From a virus, in IMG/VR virus record IMGVR_UViG_3300025073_000028, positions 1-64,000 of that record: a stretch of DNA of 64,000 nucleotides. One strand, written 5' to 3'. Made by a program: the position numbers and the translations under genes. Below, in pieces: positions 5,861-39,290 of the stretch. The notes under the pieces were generated by a model. The model searched no databases. It was given only the letters and a program-made list of their open reading frames with translations, and was not told the DNA's origin. Positions within the stretch are counted from its first letter, which is position 1, and every line of letters begins with the position of its first letter.

Positions 5861-7879
5861 TTAACCTACTGGTGTAATTTCACATTTACAATTAAAATGC
5901 CATGGAGGGATGTCGGTTACACTAACCCCATTCTTTATATATAATAACTTGTCTTTATAATCTAGACAAGTTTGACATCCATCCGAAGCTACTATTTTAA
6001 CATAATCTTTACCTAATAATCTCTGATCTAAGACTACTATATAATTTTTTGTTTGTGCAGGAACAGTATTATTAAGGAATTTAATCATATAATCAAGACT
6101 ATCAATAGAATCTATTAAAGTATTTGTTTCTAATTTTTTTCTCAATTTAGTCGCGAAATATTCTAAAGAACTCAAGACGATTTTATCCATCTCTTTTTGC
6201 GCAATACCTATCATAGATTGAACTTCTGATTTTTTTAGATCATGATGTCTAAGGTTATTTTTGAATGTCAGCAAGACATTCTCATGATAAATATCAGCTA
6301 AATTGCTGGCAGCCATTTCAATAATTATTCTCTTCCAATCTTTAGAAGATGAATAATTTGACATATCTTTAAGTTCTTTTACTAACTCTGATATTACTGA
6401 ATCTGTGGCACTATCCATAAAATCTGTATGTTGATTTCTAGGCTTTGCTCTAGAAGTTGCCATTTTGCTTGCACCTTCTGTCTTATTTACATTTGTTTCT
6501 AGTTTTACCTTTAATTTAGGAATCTCGACTAAATAAACGAATGTTTCTTTTTGCTGTCTTTCATTCAATACATCTCTACCTAATTGCACTCGTGCTTCGT
6601 CCTGAGTTGTCAAACCGCCTTGATAAAGTGTCATTTCGTGATTTTCTAATTTAATCTTTTTGTCTATATCGATTTCATTAAAACGAAAATGCACTATATT
6701 ATCTTTTGAAAGAGGATCAGAGAACCCACCTTCCAATAGAAGCTCGTAGATAAAATTCTCATTCATGAATATCTCGAATTCACGCTGGACACCTTTTACA
6801 AGGTCAACTAAATTCTTAGAAATATTTTCCGCTGTAGATCTATTTGCCGAATCTCCAAGACCGAGGTCTACCTCAGATATTCCTAACCCTATAATTACGC
6901 GCTTAAGGAAATACTGTAAGTATTCTTGGACTTCTAACGCTTTTCCTTCTGCTCCAATAGCTCTTATTTCATGTCGATGAGAGGTAATAAACATTCCTTC
7001 AGGTGGAATATCTTCTATCTTAACTTTTGCGCGCTCAATTTCATCATATCCATCTGTTCCTTTATTTTCTCGCGCTGGCATTCCATCGGTACCAATCCGA
7101 TAATGATATAAAGGATAAATGTGTTGATAAATTAATAATTCAACATTTTGTTCTATACGCCTGAGAGCACGAATATCGTCAAGGATAGGGACTAAATCAG
7201 GAGTTCCAAGAACAAACCCTGCTTTGCGACTTCTATAGAAATGTAGAACGTCACCTGGACCCCATACACCTGAGTCTCTATTGCTGACTGTATAAGTAGA
7301 CCATAATACTTGATCAGAACCATCTAATGTCCGAGGGTCTTGACCCCAGGCTACTACTTGATTATTCTTCTTCTTATAACAAATTGTTTCAGAAGGAATT
7401 TCGAAAAGAGCAGAAATCGGTTGAATATCTTTTCCATTAGCTTTTCTGACTTTGCCACCAGAATTTTTTGCGTTACGAACTTTTAATGCAAAAGCGTTAC
7501 TATTTCTGAAAAAAGAGCGCGCTAATTCTCGAATTAATAAGTCCATTGGTTGTTGTTGAGCAACACCCAACTGACGAAAACGCTCTCTAATATAATCGAC
7601 TCGATCTGCATTTGAACCGACTAATACATACCCTTCCTTAAACATCAAGGTATGTTTAAGTTCTATAGATCGTTTAACTAGACTTTCAACATCTGCGGCC
7701 TTTCCATTTTCTGCAAAATTATATTCTGGACTTCTGAACATATCAGAATTTTCAATAAATCCTTCAACCTTTTTACGTTCAGGTTTGAGGTCAGCAATAG
7801 TCCTTACAGTATAAACAGCAGCAGGCGCATCTAACAGAGAATACTTGTTTAAATATAACTTGGTAATAGGCTCTATCAT
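5861..7879 (-). CDS. Portal protein with C-terminal MuF-like head-morphogenesis motif
   Basis: 672 residues. The body (about 1-420) has portal-type features: the region around SFFRNSNAFALKVRN, WGPGDVLHFYRSRK, and a long wing/stem helix region with LLIYQHIYPLYHYRIG. Residues 440-600 are helical and charged. The last 45 residues carry the signature of Mu gpF-like proteins: GCQTCLDYKDKLLY followed by PPWHFNCKCEI, the conserved C..C and PP.H..C.C pattern. A portal joined to MuF in one chain is less common than two adjacent genes. It starts 4 bases inside the end of the upstream gene, so the two are translationally coupled. TerL lies upstream and protease downstream, as expected. Confidence 0.85.
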   Translation of the reverse strand: MIEPITKLYLNKYSLLDAPAAVYTVRTIADLKPERKKVEGFIENSDMFRSPEYNFAENGKAADVESLVKRSIELKHTLMFKEGYVLVGSNADRVDYIRERFRQLGVAQQQPMDLLIRELARSFFRNSNAFALKVRNAKNSGGKVRKANGKDIQPISALFEIPSETICYKKKNNQVVAWGQDPRTLDGSDQVLWSTYTVSNRDSGVWGPGDVLHFYRSRKAGFVLGTPDLVPILDDIRALRRIEQNVELLIYQHIYPLYHYRIGTDGMPARENKGTDGYDEIERAKVKIEDIPPEGMFITSHRHEIRAIGAEGKALEVQEYLQYFLKRVIIGLGISEVDLGLGDSANRSTAENISKNLVDLVKGVQREFEIFMNENFIYELLLEGGFSDPLSKDNIVHFRFNEIDIDKKIKLENHEMTLYQGGLTTQDEARVQLGRDVLNERQQKETFVYLVEIPKLKVKLETNVNKTEGASKMATSRAKPRNQHTDFMDSATDSVISELVKELKDMSNYSSSKDWKRIIIEMAASNLADIYHENVLLTFKNNLRHHDLKKSEVQSMIGIAQKEMDKIVLSSLEYFATKLRKKLETNTLIDSIDSLDYMIKFLNNTVPAQTKNYIVVLDQRLLGKDYVKIVASDGCQTCLDYKDKLLYIKNGVSVTDIPPWHFNCKCEITPVG

Positions 7880-19259: not shown

Positions 19260-19631
19260 GGGTGAGAAACATCGGCGTTCGATGCCCACCCCCCTCTCTC
19301 CGGAAGTTTTGGGGCGCTACCGGAGAGGCATGAGAGTAACCCCACGTTTTCACCGGGAAGGGAGGGTGAGTGAGACCGTCTAGTCACTCATCTTAGGTCT
19401 TACCCCCTCTTCCTGGTGAAAAATAGGGGCTTGAGACGAACCCCGAAGAAAAAATCGTCTCATATATCTCCACTCAAGGAGGAGTGGTTGCGGATTTCTC
19501 CCTCATGATGAGCGGTGGAGAATCCGAAACAGGGCGACGTGAGCCAGAATCACGAGGCTGCCGGGAGTCCATAACCCCGGCGGGCACAAGATGCCCAAAC
19601 TTCTGGGTACCTAATGGTTCGGGGCCAGAAG
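19260..19631 (+). ncRNA. Highly structured leader RNA of the giant ORF
   Basis: About 370 GC-rich bases with at least seven strong local helices: 19260-19291; 19296-19327 (CTCTCCGG/CCGGAGAG); 19347-19422 (a long arm TTTTCACC../..GGTGAAAA with an inner GAGTGA/TCACTC hairpin); 19433-19461 (GAGACGA/TCGTCTC); 19470-19487; 19561-19596; 19600-19631 (CTTCTGG/CCAGAAG). The giant ORF can be extended in frame to 19484, but the ribosome binding site GGAGG with ATG at 19655 is far better, which leaves this block non-coding. It could be a cis-regulatory RNA or a trans-acting ornate RNA. No known riboswitch or intron core was recognised. Confidence 0.6.
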
Positions 19632-19654
19632 TCAACCCTCTTTATGGAGGAAAT

Positions 19655-22600
19655 ATGAACCAGCAATTAGTCTTAAGTAACACCCTTAAACATCACGGTC
19701 TGACCAAGACCGTGATCAACGAAGTGTGCGACGTCCTGTTCGACACCCGGGCCTCGGTCCGGAGTTGGGTCAAGGTGAAGAGAGCCATTGCGGCTCTCAA
19801 CGGGTTAAGTGTCAGCCGTGGCCACATGATAACGTTGACCAAGGCGTGCCACACCTGGAAGGATATCGAGAACGAAATCTGGTTGAGGGCTAAGGCCCAA
19901 GACCAGATCATGCGACGGCGCAGCAGGAATCCCCAGACCGGCGCGGTTATCGACATCCCGGCCTCCAAGACCGTGATCAAGGAGGTCATCCCGGCCTCCA
20001 AGATCACGAAAGAGAGCCGCTGGGTGAGGCGTCAACGACGCATCAGCAGCGTCAAGAGCACCCAGAAGATCACCAAGGTGATGAAGATGGTCGCCGCCCT
20101 CCCCACCCTCACCTGGGGGGGCGAGGTTAACCTCGCCAAGGTGACAAAGCGGTTCACCAATCCCGGCTTCGGTACCTGGACGGTGAAGAAGAGGGCCGCC
20201 CGAACCGTTCGCAATCCGCAAACCGGCGACACCGTCAAGATCAAAGAAGTCATGGATATGACTTCCATCAACCTGGAGGTCTCCGGCACTACCTTGCCCA
20301 AGATCTCTTCCAAAATCAGGGAGACCATGGCCATGGTCAAGTCCCTGACCATTGGCGTTGAGGAGAGCAAGAGTGCTCTGGTCAATGCCAAGGAAATCGC
20401 TGTCCAGGAGTTCGCCAACGCCTGGTACGACGACCTCGGCATGATCAAAGCCGAGAAGAAGGTGGTCAATCTCCGCAGGGAGATCAGGGTCAATACCCTG
20501 GCCTTGACAAAGACCAGGAAGCTCTTGATCTGCCTCCGTCAAAGGAAGACGGAAGTCAAGGGTTTGGCCCTGGCTTTCACCAAGGCTCGTCAGTCTTGGG
20601 AGAAGGCCGTCGCCAACCTCACCTTCGCCAAGAAGGTTGAGGCCAAGGCCGTGGCCAAACTTCAGGCCAATGCCAACCGCCTGGGCAGGAAGTACAACGT
20701 CACCTTCAAGCACAGCGAGAGCATTGACGCTCCCGCCAGGCTGACCGGTGGCATTGCTTACTACCGCGCCGACGCCAACGTGGCTGACCTCCTCCACGAG
20801 ATTGGCCACATCCTGCGTGGCAGCAGCGAAGTGGCTGCGGACGCTTGGATGAACTTCCGGGCAGGTGTGTCCGGATGGACCAGGCAAGGTCTGGTCGTCC
20901 GTGACCTCTCCTGGAAGAAGGCTGAAGCCTGGTACGAAGCCCATCGTAGGAATGGTAAGTATCAGGACGCAGTCCTGGCCTCCGAGGGACACCGCTCCCT
21001 GTACTTGGTGACGACCGACAGTCGCCAAGAGCAGGTTCAAAAGCGGTTGACGTTCCTCCAGAGGGAGTTGGACTTCTCTGAAGATCCAGTTGTCCTCAAA
21101 GCCGCTCAGTCGGAGATCAACATGATCGATGCTGAGTTAGATATGGAGGAATTAGACCTGTGCTCGGAAGGGCATGACGTTATCCGTGGTGGCATCTATC
21201 GCCACTTCAAGGGTAACGAATACCAGGTCCTCGGGTTTGCCGAGGGGATGTTCGGCGAATCGTATGTCGTCTACATGAAGATGTATGGCGACTATGGACG
21301 TTGGATCCGGCCCATTGACATGTGGTCGGACCGTCCCGAGGCAGCGAACGGTAGCCGGAGGTTTGAGTATCTCTACAAAGAGGAACTCAACATGTCGGCG
21401 ATTGGAATCGGACACCATAGCGAGTCGGAAGGCTCGATTACGGTGTTCGAGGGGAATGGTAAGTTATTGGTTGCGCCTCGTTTGCAGCCATTGACGAAGC
21501 CGTCCTTCAAATCCGAGGGGCATAAAGAGGACCCAATCCCGGTGGGTAACCGGGTTAACGCTCATAGGAGAATTACCATGAGCAACTTTGACATTCTGTG
21601 GGATGAGAGCTTCCGTGACTTGGCAGGCATCAACAATCCGTGGAATCGGGTTGTTAACGCCATTAAGTCGGAAGTTCCCGACGAGGAAGATCCCGACAAC
21701 AGTGAGATCCTTCACGAGGTTGAGGAAGGTAGTGAAGACGCCAACGAACAGGCGATCTTCGACGCTGCCGTCCGCGAACACCGTGGGAATCTCACCCGGC
21801 TCAACGAAGTTCTCTTCGATGAGTACGGTGTCTGTCGGGACATTCCTCGGTGTTATCCGAAGACCCGCGAACTTGGTGCCATCATTGGTACCGTCCGTGG
21901 GTTCAAGAAGTACATCGACGATGATAAGGGACGTCTTGTTGTCGTCGAATACGAGAAGGAGTTCTGGTTGTCGGACCTGAATTCCTTCGAGGGCGGAGAT
22001 GAGTCCGTCCAAGTCAAGAGGCTGAATCCCTGGCAGCACAGGGAAGCAATCTTGGGAGCGAAGACCAATGACGGTCGCCGTTTCTATGATGCCGTACTCG
22101 GCTTCAAGAAACACACCGCTTCCGAGTTGCTTAAGGTGCTGCCTTGGGCAACCAGCAAGGTCATTCAGACCAAACTGGGAGACTCACCTCTCGGTGTCCT
22201 CTGGAACGAGAAACTCACCGGGCCAGTCTTCATCGCAATGATGAAGATAATCAAAGAGAGTAACGTCTCTCTGGTCCGTGAGGTCGTGGACATCCTCTCG
22301 ATCTACCATGTCCAAATCAAACGGGCATGGTTGCATAGGATCTTCTCCGATCAGGAGATCACCGAGATCGAGAACCAGGGTAACCGTGTTGTTTTTGATG
22401 GCAACAAATATGGTTACGATCCCGACTTCCAGGAGCGCATCAATGAAATGATGCAAAACTTCCTGGAAGAGACAAACTCCAACCCACTCGAACCTTGGCA
22501 GATGCTCAAGGCTATCGACGCGGAGATCCAGTTCGGACGTTGTCTGGAAGTCCTGAACTCCTATAGTAGGAGTACTCAAGAGGACTACGGACGTGAGTTC

Positions 22601-25600
22601 GAAGTCTGGACAAATGTCGAGGATGACAAGGCCACGTATCTCCAACGTGTCTTTGTTGCGAAGGCGTTCCAATTGGCGGAAACTGCGGAGCCTACTTTGG
22701 CGAAAGTCAAGGTAGAGGATGCAGCGAAATTCATGTGCCAGTTAGGGTTGGCGCTCGATCCTATCATCGATGCGCTGGCCACTGACAAGGACGCCCCACT
22801 CGGAAACGAGTTGGCGGGGTATCTCGTGTCTGCCCTCAAGCATGGGGTGCAGTCCAACGAGAAGTACTTCCGCCGGACTCTTCGGGCGGTGCAGTCCTTC
22901 GACCTCCCCGAACTGTATAACCACATGAAGGGTTATCGGTTCCACAAGGGAGGGTTGGAATATGTCAACCGAGCTGAGGATGGTACGAGTCTCCATGCGA
23001 AAGCGTTGTGGGACGATATGTACCACCAAATGCTCGGTAGTCTCACGACTCGCCAGCTTCTCCGCTGGTTCCGGGCTCGTGACACCATGGGCCTCTACGC
23101 CTTCGTCATGACTGACGAGGTGTTGCGGTCCATTGGTGCTCTCGCTTTGCTCAACGATAGGCGTTGGGCAAAATATGAGGCGGCCCTCCACGCTGTGAAG
23201 CGGACGGAGAAGCAGGTTGACCTGATTGAGGACCTCCGGAACATCGGAGTTGCTCCTCAAACCAGGTGTGACCTGTTCCACCTGTTCGGCGGGGAGTACG
23301 CCGTCATCGCTGAGAACGTGCTCATCGCGAACGAGAAAGGTCGTTCGCCTGAGCCGCCTCACGGTGGGCTGACCGAGATGTCCGAGGAGGAATTCAACGC
23401 CTTGGCATCTATGGCCAGTGAAGGGCACGAGAATGACATCCATGTCTTTAGGGATGTCTGGATTGTTTACGGGAGTGAACATATCCATAATCGTCCCTTA
23501 AGGAGTAAGGGGTTGTCCAAGGAGGATATCGAGGAGATCGATTCTCCTTTGGACACCGTTACTCCAGGGCAACAGATTGCCTTGGTCTGGCAGAAGGGAA
23601 TAGTCCTCAACCCCTCCCTGGAACTAAGGGACTATATCCTGTCTGAGATAAAGAGGACAGATGAATATCTCTGTCCTTCTGAGACCAGAGCAACTGTAGT
23701 CTCGGCAATTTACAGTTACTATATTCCAGGGTTGACAAACGGGATATATACGACCCAAAATTTGTCCTCGGAATATATTGACTGGCTTATTGCCGAAGGA
23801 TACAATGGGAGTAATTTAGGTTGCTGGTTTAACATAGAAAAAGCCAGCAAAATAGACTCTCCCATCTCTAGGAGGAAGTATCTTGGCATCGCGAAAATGC
23901 TGAGAGAAACCTTCCATTGGGCAACAACGCCCTTGCAAGGAGAAAAAGTACTAGAGATGTCTCTTTCATTCCTTGATGACCATTTGGTTGCCTGGCAGGC
24001 AATGCAAATGTACTCGGAGCTTGAGAGGATCTTCTTGGCCGGTACATTGTTACATGCCGGTCTTCCTCTTGAAACTCTGGGAGACATCTCCAGGGTGGAG
24101 ATTCTCTCCATTAGGAATCTCATCTCTTGGGGAACGGATGGTCAACTCCCCCAAAGCGTTCTCGCTTATAAGAGAGCGCTTAACTGGAGAGACAATCCAC
24201 ATCACGTCGAAGCGTATTGGATGAATACCTTCGGGCGTGTTCCTCAGGCGAAAGCTATCATAGATGGCATTCGCGACAGGAAGGAGATTGTGGCCCTGAA
24301 ATCGAACTGGAGGTTTTTCCAATTTGGTTGGAAATCTTTGCTGGAAGACAACCAGACGGCTATCGTTGCCCGTATGTTGTCAAAATATGCTAAATACGGC
24401 AAGGAAGGAGTGGATCTCTTTCTCTCCAGAATACACGATGTCGGAGTCCAGACAATGGAAACCGAGGTGTACCTTTTGGAAAAGAAGGAAATCTTCCAGT
24501 TATACTGGAAGTTCCGCAACTGTTCCAAACTGGACTGGTTGCAACCCCTCCGGTCTTGGACTGAGGATATTCCCATTGAGGAGTATCTACTCCTCAAGAA
24601 AGAAGATCTACAGGCAGAGATCTGTAGGAAGGGGGTTGAGAACTCCTACGGGAAAGTAGTTCCAGAACTACTCCCGTTAGCGACAGAGGCTTATCAGGCT
24701 GGAGTTAGCGACTTCAATACGCTGACTCAGTACTGGTTCAATAAGTCTCCAGTCAAGAGTATCCCTTGGGTTAATGTCTCTGAAGGGACTTACACCCTGA
24801 AGACTCTTGATGTTAATGATCCCCGGGGACCATTCCTTGGTAGGTATACTGGCTGTTGTCAGAGCTACGAAGGATTTGCCTCGGAGTGTGCTATCCATGG
24901 AATGGCCAGCAAAGATGGCTGTTTCTGGGTGGTATTCAATAGCAAACGCCTTGTTGCTCAGGCGTGGGTGTGGGTATCTAACCGCATCCTTGTTATTGAT
25001 AACATCGAAGGAGCAAGTGGCGACCCCACGGTTTATGACCTCTTCAAGAGGGCAGTAAAATCCGTGAGGGCCGACGGCATCGGCGCCGTCTATTGCGGAC
25101 TCGGATACAATAAGTATTCCGAGAAGCTGCAAGAGGAGTACCAGGTCACTCGTCTCCCGGTATCGGCCCCAGTTAACTATACCGACACCGCTGAGGGTGT
25201 CGTGAAACTGGCGTCGGAGGGACACCAAGATATCAACTTCGATCTGATCGTTCGGATCGAGGAATTGGCATATCCAGAATTCATGCGATCCTACAAGGCA
25301 GAAGAGTTCAGCCTTGAAGGCATCTGTGAATATCTGGAGTGTGAACCCAGTGAGATCTTGGCTATGACAGAGGGCGATTCTGCTTATCTGCTTGGAAGCA
25401 TCCAAGGAGATGAGGCAGAGATTGCTGACCTGGCAAAAATTCCAGGATCTCCTTCCTCTTGCGTTGCTCGCTTGATCACTCGCTGTATGCGGGTACTCAA
25501 GCAGAATAATGTGAAGACTGTCACAATGGACTGTAGGAGCACTTCCTCCCCAATCGTGAAGTCATTAGTTAATCGTATGGGGTTGACCATGACTGAAGAG

Positions 25601-28600
25601 ACTTGGGATTGGGAGGGTGAAGAAATGACTGAAATCACCGTCTCAATGGCCAGTGAAGGTCATGACGAAGACTTTGGGGTTGACCTTGGTGATGTGGAAG
25701 TTTTGCTTCAAGACCTTTGGTCTGTCAAAGCAAAGACTCTCCTCATCGGAGGAGCAGTCATTGACCGCATCCAAGGTCGACAGATCAAGGATTGGGACAT
25801 TGAGGTCTATGGACTTTCAATGAAACAACTCCAAGATTACCTGGAAGAATGGGGATATAAGGCAGATATGGTTGGTGCTGCCTTTGGAATTATTAAGGTC
25901 AAAGTCGGGACTACTGACATAGATCTTAATGTTCCTCGACTGGAGAATCGTTGTGGTGTAGGCCACAAAGGTTTCCAAGTTGAGTTACTCCCCAATCTTA
26001 CTCCTGAAGAAGCGGGGAAGAGAAGGGATCTTACAATTAACTCTATGTATGTAAATTTGCATACCGGAGAAGTTGTAGATCACTTCGGTGGAATGAAGGA
26101 TTTGAATGAAGGGATTTTGCGCGCCACTTGCGCAGAAACTTTCATTGAAGATCCATTGCGCGTTTTGCGCATCATGCAACTTCTGCCTCGTAAAGGTAAG
26201 AAGGTAGCCTCTGAGACCATCGAGTTATGTCGCTCGATGCAATCAGAATATCCTACCCTGCCTAAGGAGAGGATCTTTGAAGAGTTCAAGAAACTCCTAC
26301 TGAAAGCTAATAAGCCTTCTATGGGATTAGAATTCCTCAAGGATTGTGGTTGGATTAAGTGGTTCTTGGCTCTGGAAGCCTTGATCGGTTGCCAGCAAAA
26401 TCCTGAGCACCATCCTGAGGGTGATGCTTGGGTCCATACCTTGATGGTATTGGATAATGCGGCAATTCTCAAGGATCAAGTACCAGAGCCCTGGAAGCTT
26501 GCTTACATGTTTGGAGCTATGCTTCATGACGTAGGTAAACCACAGACCACTGATCGCGAAACTTTGACGGCATACGGGCATGACCAAGTAGGTATACCTA
26601 TTGCTCGTCAATTCATGGAATCTATGACCAATGAAGTCGATCTTATTAATAAGGTTGAACTCATTGTTGGAAATCATATGATGCCCGGTCAATTCCACCA
26701 ATCAGGGGCAGGAGTTGCAGCTTGGCGTCGTCTCCACAATAGAATCCGCTTGGATGTTATTGGATTAATGTCTAAGGCAGATTCTTGCGGCCGGAAAGGT
26801 TATTCCTTAAACGATCCACATATTCCTTCTCAAATGGCATTTGGCTATTTCGAATCGTTCGGAGAAGGGAAAATCGAGCCTATCTTAATGGGTAGACACT
26901 TAGTCTCTAGGGGATATAAGCAAGGAAAAGAAATGGGCTTAATCCTCAAGAGGGCTTATGAGCATCAGATTGAAACCGGCGAAACTGATGTAAATAAGTT
27001 ATTTAATGCTGGCATCTCACTCAATTCGGAGGGACATCAGATTAGTAAGATAATTGAACAACTCAATAAACATGGATTGTTTATTGGAGATGAACATCCT
27101 AATACTCCAACTCCTCCCGAACAGGCCAATGTTAAGTATTGGGCTTTGTGTATGTATACTCACCTACGAAATACTAGATATTATTGGTTCCCTATTTGTG
27201 AGGGCCAAAAAGAATCTTGCCTAGAAGATCAGGTAAAAGCCCTTACAGATAAAGATATACCACTCTACAAAATTCTAGTGCTTTTAGAAAAGGACATTTA
27301 CGTTGACTTAACCACCAGCAACCTCGAACAAAAGGACTTCTTTGGACACTGGAGGCACAAAGATCTAGGACATAATCCAATGGTAAGAAATAAGAATTCA
27401 TACTATATAGGAATGAAAAAGGATAAGGAAAAAGGCCGACTCCCAAAAGACTTCCCTCTCATAAGGACCTTCCATATTAAATGGGCGGCCTCTATATTGA
27501 ATAGTTTCTCTCCTCTTAGTTTTAAAGAACTACTGCAAGTTTCCTGTCGGACACAGAAGCCGTTTAAGGATTGCTATGTAGCAATGTGGGACCTCGACTA
27601 TCCTACGGACTTATTGAAAGTCCCAGCGGGTTATGCTCGGTGGTTAATAGATACAGTAGCTCTAAGGGATTCTCTTTATGCAAGCAACAAGATGCCTTTT
27701 GGAAAACACGCTCCTAAGAACATAGAGAAGTTGCGGTTTTTACCCATTCCTAGCATAGATATCCCGTCTGAAGCTCTTAATAGTAGACATGATTACTATG
27801 TATGGCTTCTAACTAATTCTACTAGATACTACGACCTTTCATCAGATTACTCTTTGCTTACTCCCCGTGAGATAAGAGCTACTGTTATAGGGCTAAAGGT
27901 TATTTCTAGCAAGACTGCATACAAACAATTCTGCAATGAAGTCTTGCATGTTAAAGCAATCCCATCTATGAAAAAGATGGATATGCTAATAAGGTTTATT
28001 AAAGATGGTGCTCAACTCTTAAATGACGATATTCCTGGTACTCGCAGATACAATGGATCTCCCGTCAGAATATTAGAAACGGCAATCTGGAATCATCAGC
28101 GTGCAATAGAGAACGATCTCTCTACAAATATTCCAATGCCCAATGAAGTTATGCCATGTAATAAGACCCTGCCTCCAAGTTGGGAAGATCTTAGGATCAA
28201 GACAAAATTAGACATGGTAAAGATAGGATCCGAGATGCGTCATTGTTTAGGAAGTTACAAAGACTCGCGCGACTTATTTTTCCGCAAAGGAACTGTCTGC
28301 GCGCAAGTGAGTGTCCAGACAGGCAAGGTAGTTCAGTGTTTTGACATGAGCAATCGGATCACTTCTGCTTCTAAAGACTTTGCTCAACAACTGAAGAAGG
28401 TCAAGAAATATATAGTAGACCCTAACACTCCTCAAATAAAAGATAAGATCGACGAAGATGAAGATTTTTTGGACGAAGACTTTTACTCGGAGGGACATAT
28501 GGATTCTACTTTAGATCAAGAGATTTTTGAAGCTTGGACAGAGTGGAGCCGCTCTCGTAATTACCATGGCTCAGAAGGATTGAGTCCCGAAGAAATTCTT

Positions 28601-29437
28601 GCACTCAAGCAAGAACTTAACAAGTTAGGGGAAAACGACCCCATAACTATAGATATGGCAAGATCTCTTGCTGATGACTATGGCTTTAGGGTGAGGATCA
28701 ATTCATACCTAACCCTTTGCGATGGAGCTTATAACCCTGCCATGAGAACAATTGACTTGGCAACTGACCCAACCAAGAGAATTCTCTTCCATGAGGTTGG
28801 ACATCATTTAGATAGATTGGCCAACCATTATTGGAGGCAAGACTTTACAACAGATTCAGAAACGCCAGAATCTGTAGGCATACTGGAACTAATAGCAGAA
28901 ATGTGGGCAGTAGCTATGTGTCAACGATATACAGATGAAAGTAAAATATATCAAACAGCTTTATGGAGAAACTACAACGTAATCCGACACTATAAAGTTA
29001 GAGGAAAGTTAATGGTTTTACCTCCTTTTGTAAATGTTAAACCCCAATGGGATAGAGTAAAAGATTTATTGGTAAGTGCAAAGAAGCAGCACATAACAGT
29101 ATTTATGGCCGCCAAGATTCTTAATGAAATGGATTATAACAATATTCTAAAGCAAACAAGTACCAGTACCGATACAGAATATAATGCCGCTCCGTCACCG
29201 CACCCTTCCTCCCGCTCCGTAACCTCTCCTCGGTTCTCGTTCAACCGCTCCTCACTCGCTGGCGCTCGCTCGTCGCTATCCTACACCTATAGGGCTGAGA
29301 CTCTACCTATTCGCTCCGTATCCAACCCTACAAAAAAGAAAAGTAGCAAAACTCAAAAAGAGAAACCAGCGCTCGCTCGCTGGCGCTCGCTCGCTGAAAA
29401 AGTAAAAGCTCTCCTCGGTTATTCGTCTTTGACATAA
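19655..29437 (+). CDS. Giant modular polyprotein with eight SEGH junctions, including a CCA-adding enzyme
   Basis: About 3260 residues from the ATG with GGAGG upstream. S-E-G-H occurs at residues 443, 504, 620, 1255, 1854, 2000, 2458 and 2945, dividing the chain into modules. 1-444: HU/IHF-like arm segments (RNPQTG at 91 and 186, GFGTWTVKKRAAR at 171), a helical stretch, zincin HEIGH at 381. 506-620: DUF1653 (YRHFKGNEY...WIRPIDMW). 622-1254: unknown helical module. 1257-1853: unknown, ending in a TGCCQSYEG...AQAWVWV domain. 1856-1999: GNAT-like (LLGSIQGDEAEIADLA). 2002-2457: tRNA nucleotidyltransferase with GGAVIDR at 2032, KDWDIEVYG at 2045, RRDLTINSMY, EDPLRVLRIMQ and HD at 2291. 2460-2944: PcfJ-like (MRHCLGSY, His at 2863). 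2947-3260: second zincin HEVGH at 3046 and a basic low-complexity tail. Synonymous codon variety at the SEGH sites shows protein-level conservation; cleavage after Glu is inferred. Confidence 0.85.
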   Translation: MNQQLVLSNTLKHHGLTKTVINEVCDVLFDTRASVRSWVKVKRAIAALNGLSVSRGHMITLTKACHTWKDIENEIWLRAKAQDQIMRRRSRNPQTGAVIDIPASKTVIKEVIPASKITKESRWVRRQRRISSVKSTQKITKVMKMVAALPTLTWGGEVNLAKVTKRFTNPGFGTWTVKKRAARTVRNPQTGDTVKIKEVMDMTSINLEVSGTTLPKISSKIRETMAMVKSLTIGVEESKSALVNAKEIAVQEFANAWYDDLGMIKAEKKVVNLRREIRVNTLALTKTRKLLICLRQRKTEVKGLALAFTKARQSWEKAVANLTFAKKVEAKAVAKLQANANRLGRKYNVTFKHSESIDAPARLTGGIAYYRADANVADLLHEIGHILRGSSEVAADAWMNFRAGVSGWTRQGLVVRDLSWKKAEAWYEAHRRNGKYQDAVLASEGHRSLYLVTTDSRQEQVQKRLTFLQRELDFSEDPVVLKAAQSEINMIDAELDMEELDLCSEGHDVIRGGIYRHFKGNEYQVLGFAEGMFGESYVVYMKMYGDYGRWIRPIDMWSDRPEAANGSRRFEYLYKEELNMSAIGIGHHSESEGSITVFEGNGKLLVAPRLQPLTKPSFKSEGHKEDPIPVGNRVNAHRRITMSNFDILWDESFRDLAGINNPWNRVVNAIKSEVPDEEDPDNSEILHEVEEGSEDANEQAIFDAAVREHRGNLTRLNEVLFDEYGVCRDIPRCYPKTRELGAIIGTVRGFKKYIDDDKGRLVVVEYEKEFWLSDLNSFEGGDESVQVKRLNPWQHREAILGAKTNDGRRFYDAVLGFKKHTASELLKVLPWATSKVIQTKLGDSPLGVLWNEKLTGPVFIAMMKIIKESNVSLVREVVDILSIYHVQIKRAWLHRIFSDQEITEIENQGNRVVFDGNKYGYDPDFQERINEMMQNFLEETNSNPLEPWQMLKAIDAEIQFGRCLEVLNSYSRSTQEDYGREFEVWTNVEDDKATYLQRVFVAKAFQLAETAEPTLAKVKVEDAAKFMCQLGLALDPIIDALATDKDAPLGNELAGYLVSALKHGVQSNEKYFRRTLRAVQSFDLPELYNHMKGYRFHKGGLEYVNRAEDGTSLHAKALWDDMYHQMLGSLTTRQLLRWFRARDTMGLYAFVMTDEVLRSIGALALLNDRRWAKYEAALHAVKRTEKQVDLIEDLRNIGVAPQTRCDLFHLFGGEYAVIAENVLIANEKGRSPEPPHGGLTEMSEEEFNALASMASEGHENDIHVFRDVWIVYGSEHIHNRPLRSKGLSKEDIEEIDSPLDTVTPGQQIALVWQKGIVLNPSLELRDYILSEIKRTDEYLCPSETRATVVSAIYSYYIPGLTNGIYTTQNLSSEYIDWLIAEGYNGSNLGCWFNIEKASKIDSPISRRKYLGIAKMLRETFHWATTPLQGEKVLEMSLSFLDDHLVAWQAMQMYSELERIFLAGTLLHAGLPLETLGDISRVEILSIRNLISWGTDGQLPQSVLAYKRALNWRDNPHHVEAYWMNTFGRVPQAKAIIDGIRDRKEIVALKSNWRFFQFGWKSLLEDNQTAIVARMLSKYAKYGKEGVDLFLSRIHDVGVQTMETEVYLLEKKEIFQLYWKFRNCSKLDWLQPLRSWTEDIPIEEYLLLKKEDLQAEICRKGVENSYGKVVPELLPLATEAYQAGVSDFNTLTQYWFNKSPVKSIPWVNVSEGTYTLKTLDVNDPRGPFLGRYTGCCQSYEGFASECAIHGMASKDGCFWVVFNSKRLVAQAWVWVSNRILVIDNIEGASGDPTVYDLFKRAVKSVRADGIGAVYCGLGYNKYSEKLQEEYQVTRLPVSAPVNYTDTAEGVVKLASEGHQDINFDLIVRIEELAYPEFMRSYKAEEFSLEGICEYLECEPSEILAMTEGDSAYLLGSIQGDEAEIADLAKIPGSPSSCVARLITRCMRVLKQNNVKTVTMDCRSTSSPIVKSLVNRMGLTMTEETWDWEGEEMTEITVSMASEGHDEDFGVDLGDVEVLLQDLWSVKAKTLLIGGAVIDRIQGRQIKDWDIEVYGLSMKQLQDYLEEWGYKADMVGAAFGIIKVKVGTTDIDLNVPRLENRCGVGHKGFQVELLPNLTPEEAGKRRDLTINSMYVNLHTGEVVDHFGGMKDLNEGILRATCAETFIEDPLRVLRIMQLLPRKGKKVASETIELCRSMQSEYPTLPKERIFEEFKKLLLKANKPSMGLEFLKDCGWIKWFLALEALIGCQQNPEHHPEGDAWVHTLMVLDNAAILKDQVPEPWKLAYMFGAMLHDVGKPQTTDRETLTAYGHDQVGIPIARQFMESMTNEVDLINKVELIVGNHMMPGQFHQSGAGVAAWRRLHNRIRLDVIGLMSKADSCGRKGYSLNDPHIPSQMAFGYFESFGEGKIEPILMGRHLVSRGYKQGKEMGLILKRAYEHQIETGETDVNKLFNAGISLNSEGHQISKIIEQLNKHGLFIGDEHPNTPTPPEQANVKYWALCMYTHLRNTRYYWFPICEGQKESCLEDQVKALTDKDIPLYKILVLLEKDIYVDLTTSNLEQKDFFGHWRHKDLGHNPMVRNKNSYYIGMKKDKEKGRLPKDFPLIRTFHIKWAASILNSFSPLSFKELLQVSCRTQKPFKDCYVAMWDLDYPTDLLKVPAGYARWLIDTVALRDSLYASNKMPFGKHAPKNIEKLRFLPIPSIDIPSEALNSRHDYYVWLLTNSTRYYDLSSDYSLLTPREIRATVIGLKVISSKTAYKQFCNEVLHVKAIPSMKKMDMLIRFIKDGAQLLNDDIPGTRRYNGSPVRILETAIWNHQRAIENDLSTNIPMPNEVMPCNKTLPPSWEDLRIKTKLDMVKIGSEMRHCLGSYKDSRDLFFRKGTVCAQVSVQTGKVVQCFDMSNRITSASKDFAQQLKKVKKYIVDPNTPQIKDKIDEDEDFLDEDFYSEGHMDSTLDQEIFEAWTEWSRSRNYHGSEGLSPEEILALKQELNKLGENDPITIDMARSLADDYGFRVRINSYLTLCDGAYNPAMRTIDLATDPTKRILFHEVGHHLDRLANHYWRQDFTTDSETPESVGILELIAEMWAVAMCQRYTDESKIYQTALWRNYNVIRHYKVRGKLMVLPPFVNVKPQWDRVKDLLVSAKKQHITVFMAAKILNEMDYNNILKQTSTSTDTEYNAAPSPHPSSRSVTSPRFSFNRSSLAGARSSLSYTYRAETLPIRSVSNPTKKKSSKTQKEKPALARWRSLAEKVKALLGYSSLT
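21564..21580 (+). promoter_or_regulatory. Internal ribosome binding site within the giant ORF
   Basis: ATAGGAG lies 7 bases before an in-frame ATG (21578, Met642), shortly after the third SEGH site. It could allow separate translation of module 4 onward, or be a relic of gene fusion. Confidence 0.45.
28487..28501 (+). promoter_or_regulatory. SEGH codons doubling as ribosome binding site before the last module
   Basis: The last SEGH is encoded by TCGGAGGGACAT directly followed by ATG (Met2949). The GGAGG is correctly spaced for initiation, so the C-terminal zincin module could also be made alone. Confidence 0.4.
29369..29396 (+). repeat. Tandem GC-rich 14-mer inside the giant ORF tail
   Basis: GCGCTCGCTCGCTG is repeated twice head to tail; a related CTCGCTGGCGCTCGCTCG copy occurs near 29255. 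It encodes the ALARWRSLAEK region of the basic tail. It stands out from the AT-rich surroundings. Confidence 0.6.
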
Positions 29438-34431: not shown

Positions 34432-34953
34432 ATGGACATCGCCCAAGCACAAAACATCCTCTCGCTCATTCAAGAGATCACCAACACGCTCAAGGAGCAT
34501 GGATTCTGGCCCAATGAAGAACTCATTTCCAACAAAGTTCCCGAACAAAACAAAACTTTACTCGATAAAATTGACAGCCAACAAGATGTCATCGAATCAC
34601 TCAAATACTCGCTAATACAAGAAGAAAAAAAAGGTGACCAATACTACCAGACAATCACAAACCTCAAAAAAAGAATAAGCAACGCTATTACAGACAACCA
34701 ATACCCGTTACTCATCAGCTTGATCATGACACTCGCCCCCTCAACCGCAACCGACAAACTGATCGCAAAAACACTCTACGACTACTTCTACGGTGAGGCA
34801 CGCAACAAAAAGATCATCTGGATCAAAAACTACAAGCAACTCACCAACACACATTTGAAAGACGCCAAAGATATCGTCGAAACGATCACTGGTCCATACG
34901 TTCCTGAACCAACCAAAATCGACCTCGAAAAGGACGAAGAATGGCCACAATAA
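34432..34953 (+). CDS. Protein with C-terminal ribosomal L7/L12-CTD-like segment
   Basis: 173 residues. Residues 1-75 are helical and coiled-coil-like (TLLDKIDSQQDVIESLKYS). Residues about 125-155 (KKIIWIKNYKQLTNTHLKDA then KDIVETI) match the core of the bL12 C-terminal domain (IK-x-x-x-x-x-T-x-x-x-LK-x-AKD-x-VE). In ribosomes that surface recruits translational GTPases; similar segments also occur in proteins of unrelated function. The presence of a GTPase-associated-centre RNA 3 kb downstream makes the match worth testing. Overlaps the start of the next micropeptide. Confidence 0.6.
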   Translation: MDIAQAQNILSLIQEITNTLKEHGFWPNEELISNKVPEQNKTLLDKIDSQQDVIESLKYSLIQEEKKGDQYYQTITNLKKRISNAITDNQYPLLISLIMTLAPSTATDKLIAKTLYDYFYGEARNKKIIWIKNYKQLTNTHLKDAKDIVETITGPYVPEPTKIDLEKDEEWPQ

Positions 34954-38010: not shown

Positions 38011-38018
38011 AAAAAATA

Positions 38019-38300
38019 GTGGTTATCCGGGAAGTGGGCTTAGAAGCAGCCATCTTTTAAAGAGTGGCCCCTTAACATTGCAAAGGCGTTTAAGAGTTCG
38101 GCAGCTTGCTGGCGCGTCAGTGAATAAAAACAAGACCTGAGCTTGTATGCGTACTGCTCGTCTGTTCGACGGAACAGATGACTCAAGCCATGAAAATGGG
38201 ATTGTCAGGATGTTTAAGTAGGTAGTTAAACTGACAATTTGGGGTGTTAACCTACTAATGGTAGACTGGCCTTTGGCGTAATAGCACACCTGATAACTAC
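38019..38300 (+). ncRNA. RNA resembling the 23S rRNA GTPase-associated centre, with an insert
   Basis: 38030-38065 reads GGAAGUGGGCUUAGAAGCAG then CCAUCUUUUAAAGAGU, and 38276-38290 reads GCGUAAUAGCACACC. This is the L11-binding region (E. coli 23S about 1051-1108; bacterial consensus GGCUUAGAAGCAGCCAUC and AAAGAGUGCGUAAUAGCUCAC). The two parts are separated by 210 bases placed inside the hairpin-44 stem. The whole is closed by a 9-bp helix GUGGUUAUC (38019) with GAUAACUAC (38292) that differs from rRNA but pairs. In helix 43, AUG/CAU of E. coli is AAG/CUU here, a compensatory change. It lies between a lectin-fold gene and tRNA-His. Role unknown: decoy for L11, translational GTPases or RelA, or thiostrepton-type drugs. 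Confidence 0.85.
38066..38275 (+). other. Insert in the rRNA-like RNA, possible intron
   Basis: Removing this segment restores AAAGAGU-GCGUAAUAGC, the bacterial consensus. The 5' boundary follows U and the last base is G, as for group I introns. Inside are hairpins TCTGTTC/GAACAGA, GTTTAA/TTAAAC with loop GTAGGTAG able to pair to downstream ACCTAC. No group I P7/IGS set could be identified. Confidence 0.5.
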
Positions 38301-38311
38301 TTTTATAGATG

Positions 38312-38383
38312 GTGACCGTAGTTCAACGGCTAGAATTTTGGGTTGTGGTCCCAAAGATGTGGGTTCGATTCCCACCGGTCACA
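38312..38383 (+). tRNA. tRNA-His(GUG)
   Basis: Acceptor GTGACCG/CGGTCAC, anticodon stem TTGGG/CCCAA with loop TTGTGGT, T-arm GTGGG-TTCGATT-CCCAC. A G precedes position 1, as expected for the extra G of tRNA-His. No CCA encoded. Confidence 0.92.
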
Positions 38384-39110: not shown

Positions 39111-39190
39111 GCCCGAATGGGAGGAATGGTATCTCCAGGGTTAAAATATCCTGGCTAATGAGCCTATCGGTTCAAACCCGACTTCGGGCA
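39111..39190 (+). tRNA. tRNA-Leu-like, diverged copy of 38916
   Basis: Same acceptor GCCCGAA/TTCGGGC, TTAAAAT still present, but the anticodon helix CCAGG/CCTGG competes with the D-stem and gives an irregular loop. Probably a duplicated and decaying tRNA-Leu(UAA), or one with altered folding. Confidence 0.7.
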
Positions 39191-39198
39191 TAAAAAAT

Positions 39199-39269
39199 GG
39201 CATCATAGCTCAAAGGAGAGAGCCTCTGGTGTCTACCAGAAGATCTAAGTATGAATCTTAGTGATGCCG
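39199..39269 (+). tRNA. tRNA-like gene, possible Asp(GUC), six-base anticodon loop
   Basis: Acceptor GGCATCA/TGATGCC as in 39014; D-arm GCTC/GAGC; anticodon stem TCTGG/CCAGA encloses only TGTCTA (GUC if U33 is the first base); T-arm CTAAG-TATGAAT-CTTAG lacks the usual TTC. Diverged copy in the duplicated pair. Confidence 0.65.
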
Positions 39270-39290
39270 TCTTCAAAAAAAAGGAAATAC

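Follow-up and report, generated by a model that had tools for sequence, protein, structure and literature searches.

An rRNA-like noncoding RNA gene in a tailed phage genome

The window analyzed here is the whole stretch of 64,000 nucleotides at positions 1 to 64,000 of IMG/VR record IMGVR_UViG_3300025073_000028, a record of 125,446 bases, and its capsid and terminase genes and several tRNAs mark it as part of a tailed phage. Starting 28 nt past the upstream stop codon and ending 10 nt before tRNA-His, a 284-nt RNA carries two segments of bacterial 23S rRNA with a structured domain between them. The features of the locus, all on the plus strand, are as follows.

38018..38301, +, whole RNA, with its ends set by the closing (outer) helix
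38018..38029, +, outer helix 5' strand, sequence unlike rRNA, 11 of 12 positions pairing with 38290-38301
38030..38065, +, copy of E. coli 23S rRNA 1055-1090 (RF02541 match, alignment, covariation)
38066..38271, +, inserted structured domain of 206 nt (closing pairs 1-4 covary; fold)
38201..38238, +, hairpin within the insert (ATTGTCAG/CTGACAAT), with the loop taken to form a pseudoknot
38272..38275, +, UUUG linker, shared across the family and absent from rRNA
38276..38289, +, copy of E. coli 23S rRNA 1091-1104 (sequence, family alignment, covariation)
38290..38301, +, outer helix 3' strand, pairing with 38018-38029
38312..38383, +, tRNA-His (GTG), same strand

The sequences GGAAGTGGGCTTAGAAGCAGCCATCTTTTAAAGAGT (38030-38065) and GCGTAATAGCACAC (38276-38289) are position-by-position counterparts of E. 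coli 1055-1090 and 1091-1104, respectively. The first comprises the helix 43 hairpin, the junction A1084-A1086 and the 5' strand of helix 44, and the second supplies the 3' part of helix 44 with its GUAAUA loop, including an A1101 that pairs with U1090. An earlier reading of this DNA from its letters alone (the sequence-only reading) had quoted three conserved rRNA pieces in rRNA order, and all three are present within these two segments. A single copy of the 34-nt core is present in the window, whereas its expected count in shuffled sequences is 0.00. A covariance-model search, as that reading had advised, found the window's only match to RF02541, the Rfam bacterial LSU model, at this locus (model positions 1097-1144, E=2e-4), with a score of 20.5 bits against a gathering threshold of 50, which places the locus outside LSU rRNA membership. 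As the rRNA pieces are split by the UUUG linker and the 206-nt insert, which is closed by a GGCC/GGCC helix and placed between E. coli 1090 and 1091, the window RNA is not a simple rRNA copy.

The sequence-only reading contained neither the structured insert nor the wider family described below. It correctly described a closing helix that is unlike rRNA yet paired, although this helix has 11 pairs and one C·U mismatch rather than 9 bp, so that the ends fall at 38018-38301 instead of 38019-38300. The tRNA-rich setting that it reported is also borne out, with tRNA-His probably co-transcribed with the RNA and no rRNA detected in the window by an Rfam scan.

A large and unannotated family of phage RNAs

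The window RNA belongs to a large phage RNA family that carries no annotation. An initial exact-pattern search returned 32 viral contigs and a scan by the 3' half returned at least 119 stretches; 108 distinct members from IMG/VR contigs, cultured phages and a few MAGs were aligned. The core was located by BLAST in the complete genomes of the cultured phages Aeromonas 4_4572, Pseudomonas pf16, UNO-G1W1, Astolliot, Milchi, Cronobacter GAP32, Serratia BF, Acinetobacter ME3 and Xanthomonas XaC1, XbC2 and XacN1, and in Vibrio 2.275.O, whose genome is partial, with more matches in Pectobacterium CBB and Erwinia phages. In total, the RNA is present in over ten complete genomes of cultured phages. It is unannotated in the records opened and occupies intergenic gaps, except in UNO-G1W1 and Milchi, where the annotation places small hypothetical CDSs on the opposite strand, overlapping or beside it.

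The carriers are unrelated tailed phages of Gram-negative hosts together with MAGs, Bacillota and Bacteroidota being among these. A search of 84,980 species genomes of bacteria and archaea found the 3' motif in only 8 contigs, mostly MAGs, so the RNA is essentially viral and an origin in bacterial chromosomes was rejected. BLAST matches in plasmids were dominated by rRNA. On one phage contig (L099), two rRNA-like cores lie close together on the minus strand, near 1361 and 1672.

Throughout the aligned set the order of parts is the same: outer helix, 1055-1090, an insert of 25-365 nt, UUUR, 1091-1104 and outer helix. The outer helix is variable, the rRNA part is a near-complete copy of helices 43/44 (E. 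coli 1055-1104), and the insertion point between 1090 and 1091 is identical in all 108 members. The UUU linker is present in 108/108 aligned members and in 21 of 21 distinct ones recovered through the 5' half alone. U1090 is paired with A1101, replaced by G in three members, throughout or nearly throughout the alignment; position 1101 of the sampled bacterial rRNAs is U, and their position 1090 is A or U.

Because the search patterns contain rRNA-like letters, the frequencies in the alignment are partly conditioned by the patterns and regular expressions, and the apparent conservation could be partly circular. An independent search was therefore conducted with a motif from the insert of one class only, CACCCCNKAANYGGTAAGG. 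This search yielded 63 distinct sites, 59 of which have the rRNA-like 3' half within 60 nt downstream and 53 of which also have the 5' half upstream, while the other 4 look like chance matches. This co-occurrence indicates that the insert and the rRNA-like part belong to one RNA. The insert-selected sample shows more variation than the pattern-selected set, with an alignment that is loose after 1080.

Covariation supports the fold and excludes contamination

Covariation was measured in 100 non-redundant members against 500 shuffles. The 1058-1080 pair of helix 43 occurs as six standard pair types and is paired in 100% of members compared to 46% in the shuffles; the compensatory change that the sequence-only reading had seen in this helix is at this pair, which is A-U in the window RNA and U-A in E. 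coli. Pairs 1057-1081 and 1064-1074 have changes on both sides. In the outer helix, pairs 2-10 show 5-6 standard pair types each and pair 1 shows 3, and the insert-closing pairs 1-4 show 2-6 types; pairing at outer-helix pairs 2-10 and insert-closing pairs 1-4 exceeds that in all 500 shuffles. The shuffles ignore relatedness, although the number of compensated pair types makes a phylogenetic artefact implausible. No covariation was found for 1061-1070. In the insert-selected sample, C1092-G1099 becomes U-A in several members, and C1064-G1074 becomes A-U. The earlier claim that structure is being kept, rather than a chance copy, therefore stands, with covariation across the family in helix 43, the outer helix and the insert helix.

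Structure prediction, also advised by the sequence-only reading, did not deliver these helices. The minimum-free-energy fold of the window RNA does not recover helices 43 and 44 (-88.5 kcal/mol unconstrained compared to -76.2 kcal/mol with both forced) under an energy model that ignores tertiary contacts. Plain minimum-free-energy folding was set aside as evidence, and as the energy model prefers another fold, the structural claim rests on covariation and homology.

The core match does resemble rRNA, and some phage records hold real rRNA: the GenBank record of Paenibacillus phage Pd_22F (MZ092003.1), which is probably a chimeric assembly, contains genuine bacterial 23S rRNA and was excluded from the family. 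As an account of the family, contamination by host rDNA, mis-assembly or a functionless rRNA fragment in decay is nevertheless refuted, with a negligible chance of being correct. The RNA occurs in dozens of phage genomes, including the complete cultured ones, its insertion site (absent from rRNA), UUU linker and U1090-A1101 pair are shared by all or nearly all aligned members, its helices covary strongly, and a second contig, of 190 kb (L011), carries the window RNA letter for letter. Contamination and mis-assembly of the window RNA, which the sequence-only reading had named among the outcomes that would defeat it, are excluded.

Gene context and tRNA clusters

Co-directional tRNAs are present at 74 of the 108 loci, with 597 tRNAs on the same strand as the RNA and 0 on the opposite strand. 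A tRNA lies within 200 nt at 50/108 loci, compared to 22% of positions drawn at random within these loci, and in seven cases (L001, L017, L085, L102, L118, L143 and L157) tRNAs flank the RNA on either side at a distance of about 15 nt or less. As such tRNAs abut a gene whose ends coincide with the outer helix, the RNA is probably processed from the tRNA-cluster transcript. In the window, the anticodons called for two tRNA-like genes beside normal tRNAs are odd (39111-39190, aaaa; 39198-39271, tc).

No L11 gene was detected in 55 RNA-carrying records, in a search that found L11 in 14/14 cellular genomes as a control. A phage-encoded L11 was thus rejected as the partner, and any bound L11 would be that of the host. 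A ribosomal protein leader was likewise rejected, as tRNA-His follows the RNA in the window, the neighbors vary and are often tRNAs, and none of the 55 records holds L11. A group I/II or other rRNA intron was also discarded, with no intron-model match at the locus and a location that is not inside rDNA.

Partial matches to the L12 C-terminal domain were found in 6 of the 55 records, including this genome, and four of them exceed the family cut-off. In the window, the 173-aa open reading frame at 34432-34953 (+) carries a C-terminal sequence, KKIIWIKNYKQLTNTHLKDAKDIVETI, with similarity to the segment of the bL12 C-terminal domain that binds factors (PF00542, E=1.2e-5, under the cut-off; matched stretch 34798-34887). 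Elsewhere in the window, a single open reading frame of 3317 aa (19484-29437, +) appears to consist of several distinct domains joined through repeated SEGH-containing linkers, as if it were a polyprotein cut at these linkers.

A constant core beneath drifting loops

G1059, U1060, C1079, A1085, G1087, A1088 and C1102 are identical in 108/108 aligned members, and the helix 43/44 pairs with U1060, A1088, A1085 and G1087-C1102 are found in all 108, with some of these positions being included in the selection patterns. Related phages therefore do keep the core of helices 43/44, as the sequence-only reading had proposed to check. This fold core is constant in the phage RNAs and alike in a small comparison set of 53 bacterial 23S loci (17 distinct, three phyla). 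Positions 1061, 1067, 1068, 1069, 1070, 1082, 1086 and 1096 are invariant in that rRNA sample and vary in the phage RNAs. A1061, one such natural variant present in 23 of 108 members, matches the substitution employed in laboratory studies of the 58-mer. Full-length L11 is bound in vitro by the isolated E. coli 58-mer carrying U1061A (PMC10161774).

An rRNA-like loop for translation factors and thiostrepton is not preserved across the family, with A1067 kept in 84/108 members (A1067G in 20) and A1096 in 79/108; A1095 is kept in 106/108. A1067 is central to thiostrepton binding, and together with A1070 and A1096 it belongs to the loops that face the translation factors and thiostrepton. As these loops vary while the core is constant, the signal being kept would be the fold that L11 recognizes. 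The simplest reading is that selection in the phages acts on the fold read by the RNA-binding domain of L11 and not on the factor interface, which favors L11, through its C-terminal domain, as the partner. The sequence-only reading had left the choice wider, between a decoy and a partner for L11, EF-G/EF-Tu, RelA or an antibiotic or toxin that targets this site; its L11 option gains from the drift of the tips over a constant core, and its decoy option at the A1067 loop loses.

In particular, this drift argues against a decoy for readers of the A1067 loop such as thiostrepton-like drugs, EF-G or the tRNA elbow. If a host effector, toxin, nuclease or drug attacks or reads the GTPase-associated center on ribosomes, a decoy for it would account for a faithful copy of a classic target site and for A1095, which is kept even in 57 of 59 insert-selected members, but it fits worse than L11 because the loops that such drugs and factors read are relaxed, with A1067, G1068, A1069, A1070 and A1096 all drifting. 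No anti-phage effector is known to us to cut here, and we regard such a decoy as improbable.

Helices 43/44 contact EF-G, EF-Tu, RF and RelA on ribosomes, and these proteins could be titrated directly in place of L11, a reading to which the partial L12 C-terminal-domain matches lend something. The factor-facing nucleotides are, however, the relaxed ones, helix 42 (the L10/L12 binding region) is not copied and the outer helix is unrelated in sequence, leaving direct titration very improbable.

A proposed role in capturing host L11

The best explanation for the locus is a phage-encoded, stand-alone noncoding RNA whose conserved half folds as the 58-nt L11-binding domain and whose variable half is a structured domain grafted into helix 44. 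We hold the overall account of L11 binding and capture tentatively, at somewhat less than an even chance, and its steps differ in strength. The folded domain would bind the RNA-binding C-terminal domain of host uL11 off the ribosome; from the conserved core, such binding outside the ribosome is reasonably probable, and L11 binding is the concrete prediction of the proposal. The likeliest consequence would be capture of free or exchangeable L11, leaving more of the host ribosomes without it, and these ribosomes would translate but fail to activate RelA, thereby blunting the stringent response.

L11 (rplK/relC) is essential for RelA activation by starved E. coli ribosomes (PMC7058999), so capture would give translating ribosomes without starvation signaling. 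Such ribosomes would be useful to phages that bring tRNAs of their own. A blunted stringent response while translation runs on is nonetheless well short of an even chance. The helix added between 1090 and 1091 might stand in the way of L11, and stripping L11 off thousands of ribosomes needs a very high abundance of the RNA.

In its broadest form, the family would be a widespread class of viral regulatory RNA derived from a captured ribosome domain, which strips L11 from host ribosomes or withholds it and so phenocopies relC, leaving ribosomes blind to uncharged tRNA. Translation would then persist through infection, and the grafted variable domain would fit the RNA to each host. We view this extension as unlikely, at the low end of what we allow for the stringent-response step. 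Faithful copies of the L11 docking site in many large bacterial viruses suggest L11 capture or other tampering with the host ribosome, and they raise the question of whether phages rewire the base of the host ribosome stalk and possibly silence RelA.

The insert domain and comparison with known RNAs

The inserts fall into 67 BLAST clusters among the 108 members, with individual classes holding conserved motifs of their own, such as GGCACCCCGKAAMYGGTAAGGC. In the window insert, the loop GTAGG (38218-38222) is complementary to CCTAC (38251-38255), and the same loop-to-downstream pairing recurs in the window class as CCTAA/TTAGG in the L002 group and CGGCGG/CCGCCG in L047. These complementarities were read by eye, the automatic complement search having returned the hairpin stem, and we take them as a pseudoknot kept by compensatory change in three separate lineages. 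Rfam searches gave no match beyond LSU for the window locus at E<=10 and none at E<=0.5 when the inserts from eight further loci were scanned. A second rRNA mimic, the sarcin-ricin loop, was sought in the inserts and its motif was not found. The variable domain may serve stability, oligomerization or the recruitment of a partner specific to the phage or the host.

The RNA falls under no Rfam 15 family, and no description was found in the open-access papers searched, in agreement with the sequence-only reading, which knew of no described phage RNA of this kind. To our knowledge, it would be the first stand-alone RNA family built from a captured functional 23S rRNA domain, and we know of no rRNA domain reported in GOLLD or ROOL. 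With the L11-binding domain of 23S rRNA (E. coli 1051-1108) it shares the nucleotide order, the helix 43/44 pairs and the U1060-A1088 long-range pair. Unlike that domain, it is a stand-alone phage gene with an unrelated outer helix, a 25-365 nt insert at 1090/1091, a UUUR linker, A1101 and relaxed tip nucleotides. Comparing the two offers a natural mutagenesis that separates the nucleotides of the fold from those of the translation factors.

Ribosomal protein leaders also imitate an r-protein binding site through rRNA mimicry, whereas they are cis-acting mRNA elements preceding r-protein genes and are not viral (PMC7247131). GOLLD and ROOL are large structured phage RNAs, often near tRNA islands, with variable and conserved parts (PMC12286853); the present RNA differs in that neither the window, nor a lax scan of the locus, nor the eight other loci match them in Rfam. 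OLE is a noncoding RNA proposed to hold bS21/RpsU via a ribosome-like pocket (PMC12286853, PMC12054373), and it is unrelated in sequence, resides mostly in Bacillota chromosomes and involves a different protein.

These systems provide precedents for parts of a further reading, an L11-anchored ribonucleoprotein in which L11 would stabilize or localize the RNA while the insert acts, by binding a phage protein or RNA or by assembling like GOLLD/ROOL. The tRNA-cluster setting shared with GOLLD/ROOL and the proposed sequestration of RpsU by OLE (PMC12286853) are consistent with it, as is an insert that diversifies into so many clusters and yet retains class-specific motifs and a compensated pseudoknot. 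Since the shortest inserts, in some members only 25-32 nt, leave little room for a complex effector, this ribonucleoprotein is possible but on the unlikely side. A minor observation concerns the L002 contig, which in addition to its L11-domain RNA has a match to YrlA (Y-RNA-like) at 6290-6382 (-), with E=4.6e-5 and under the gathering score.
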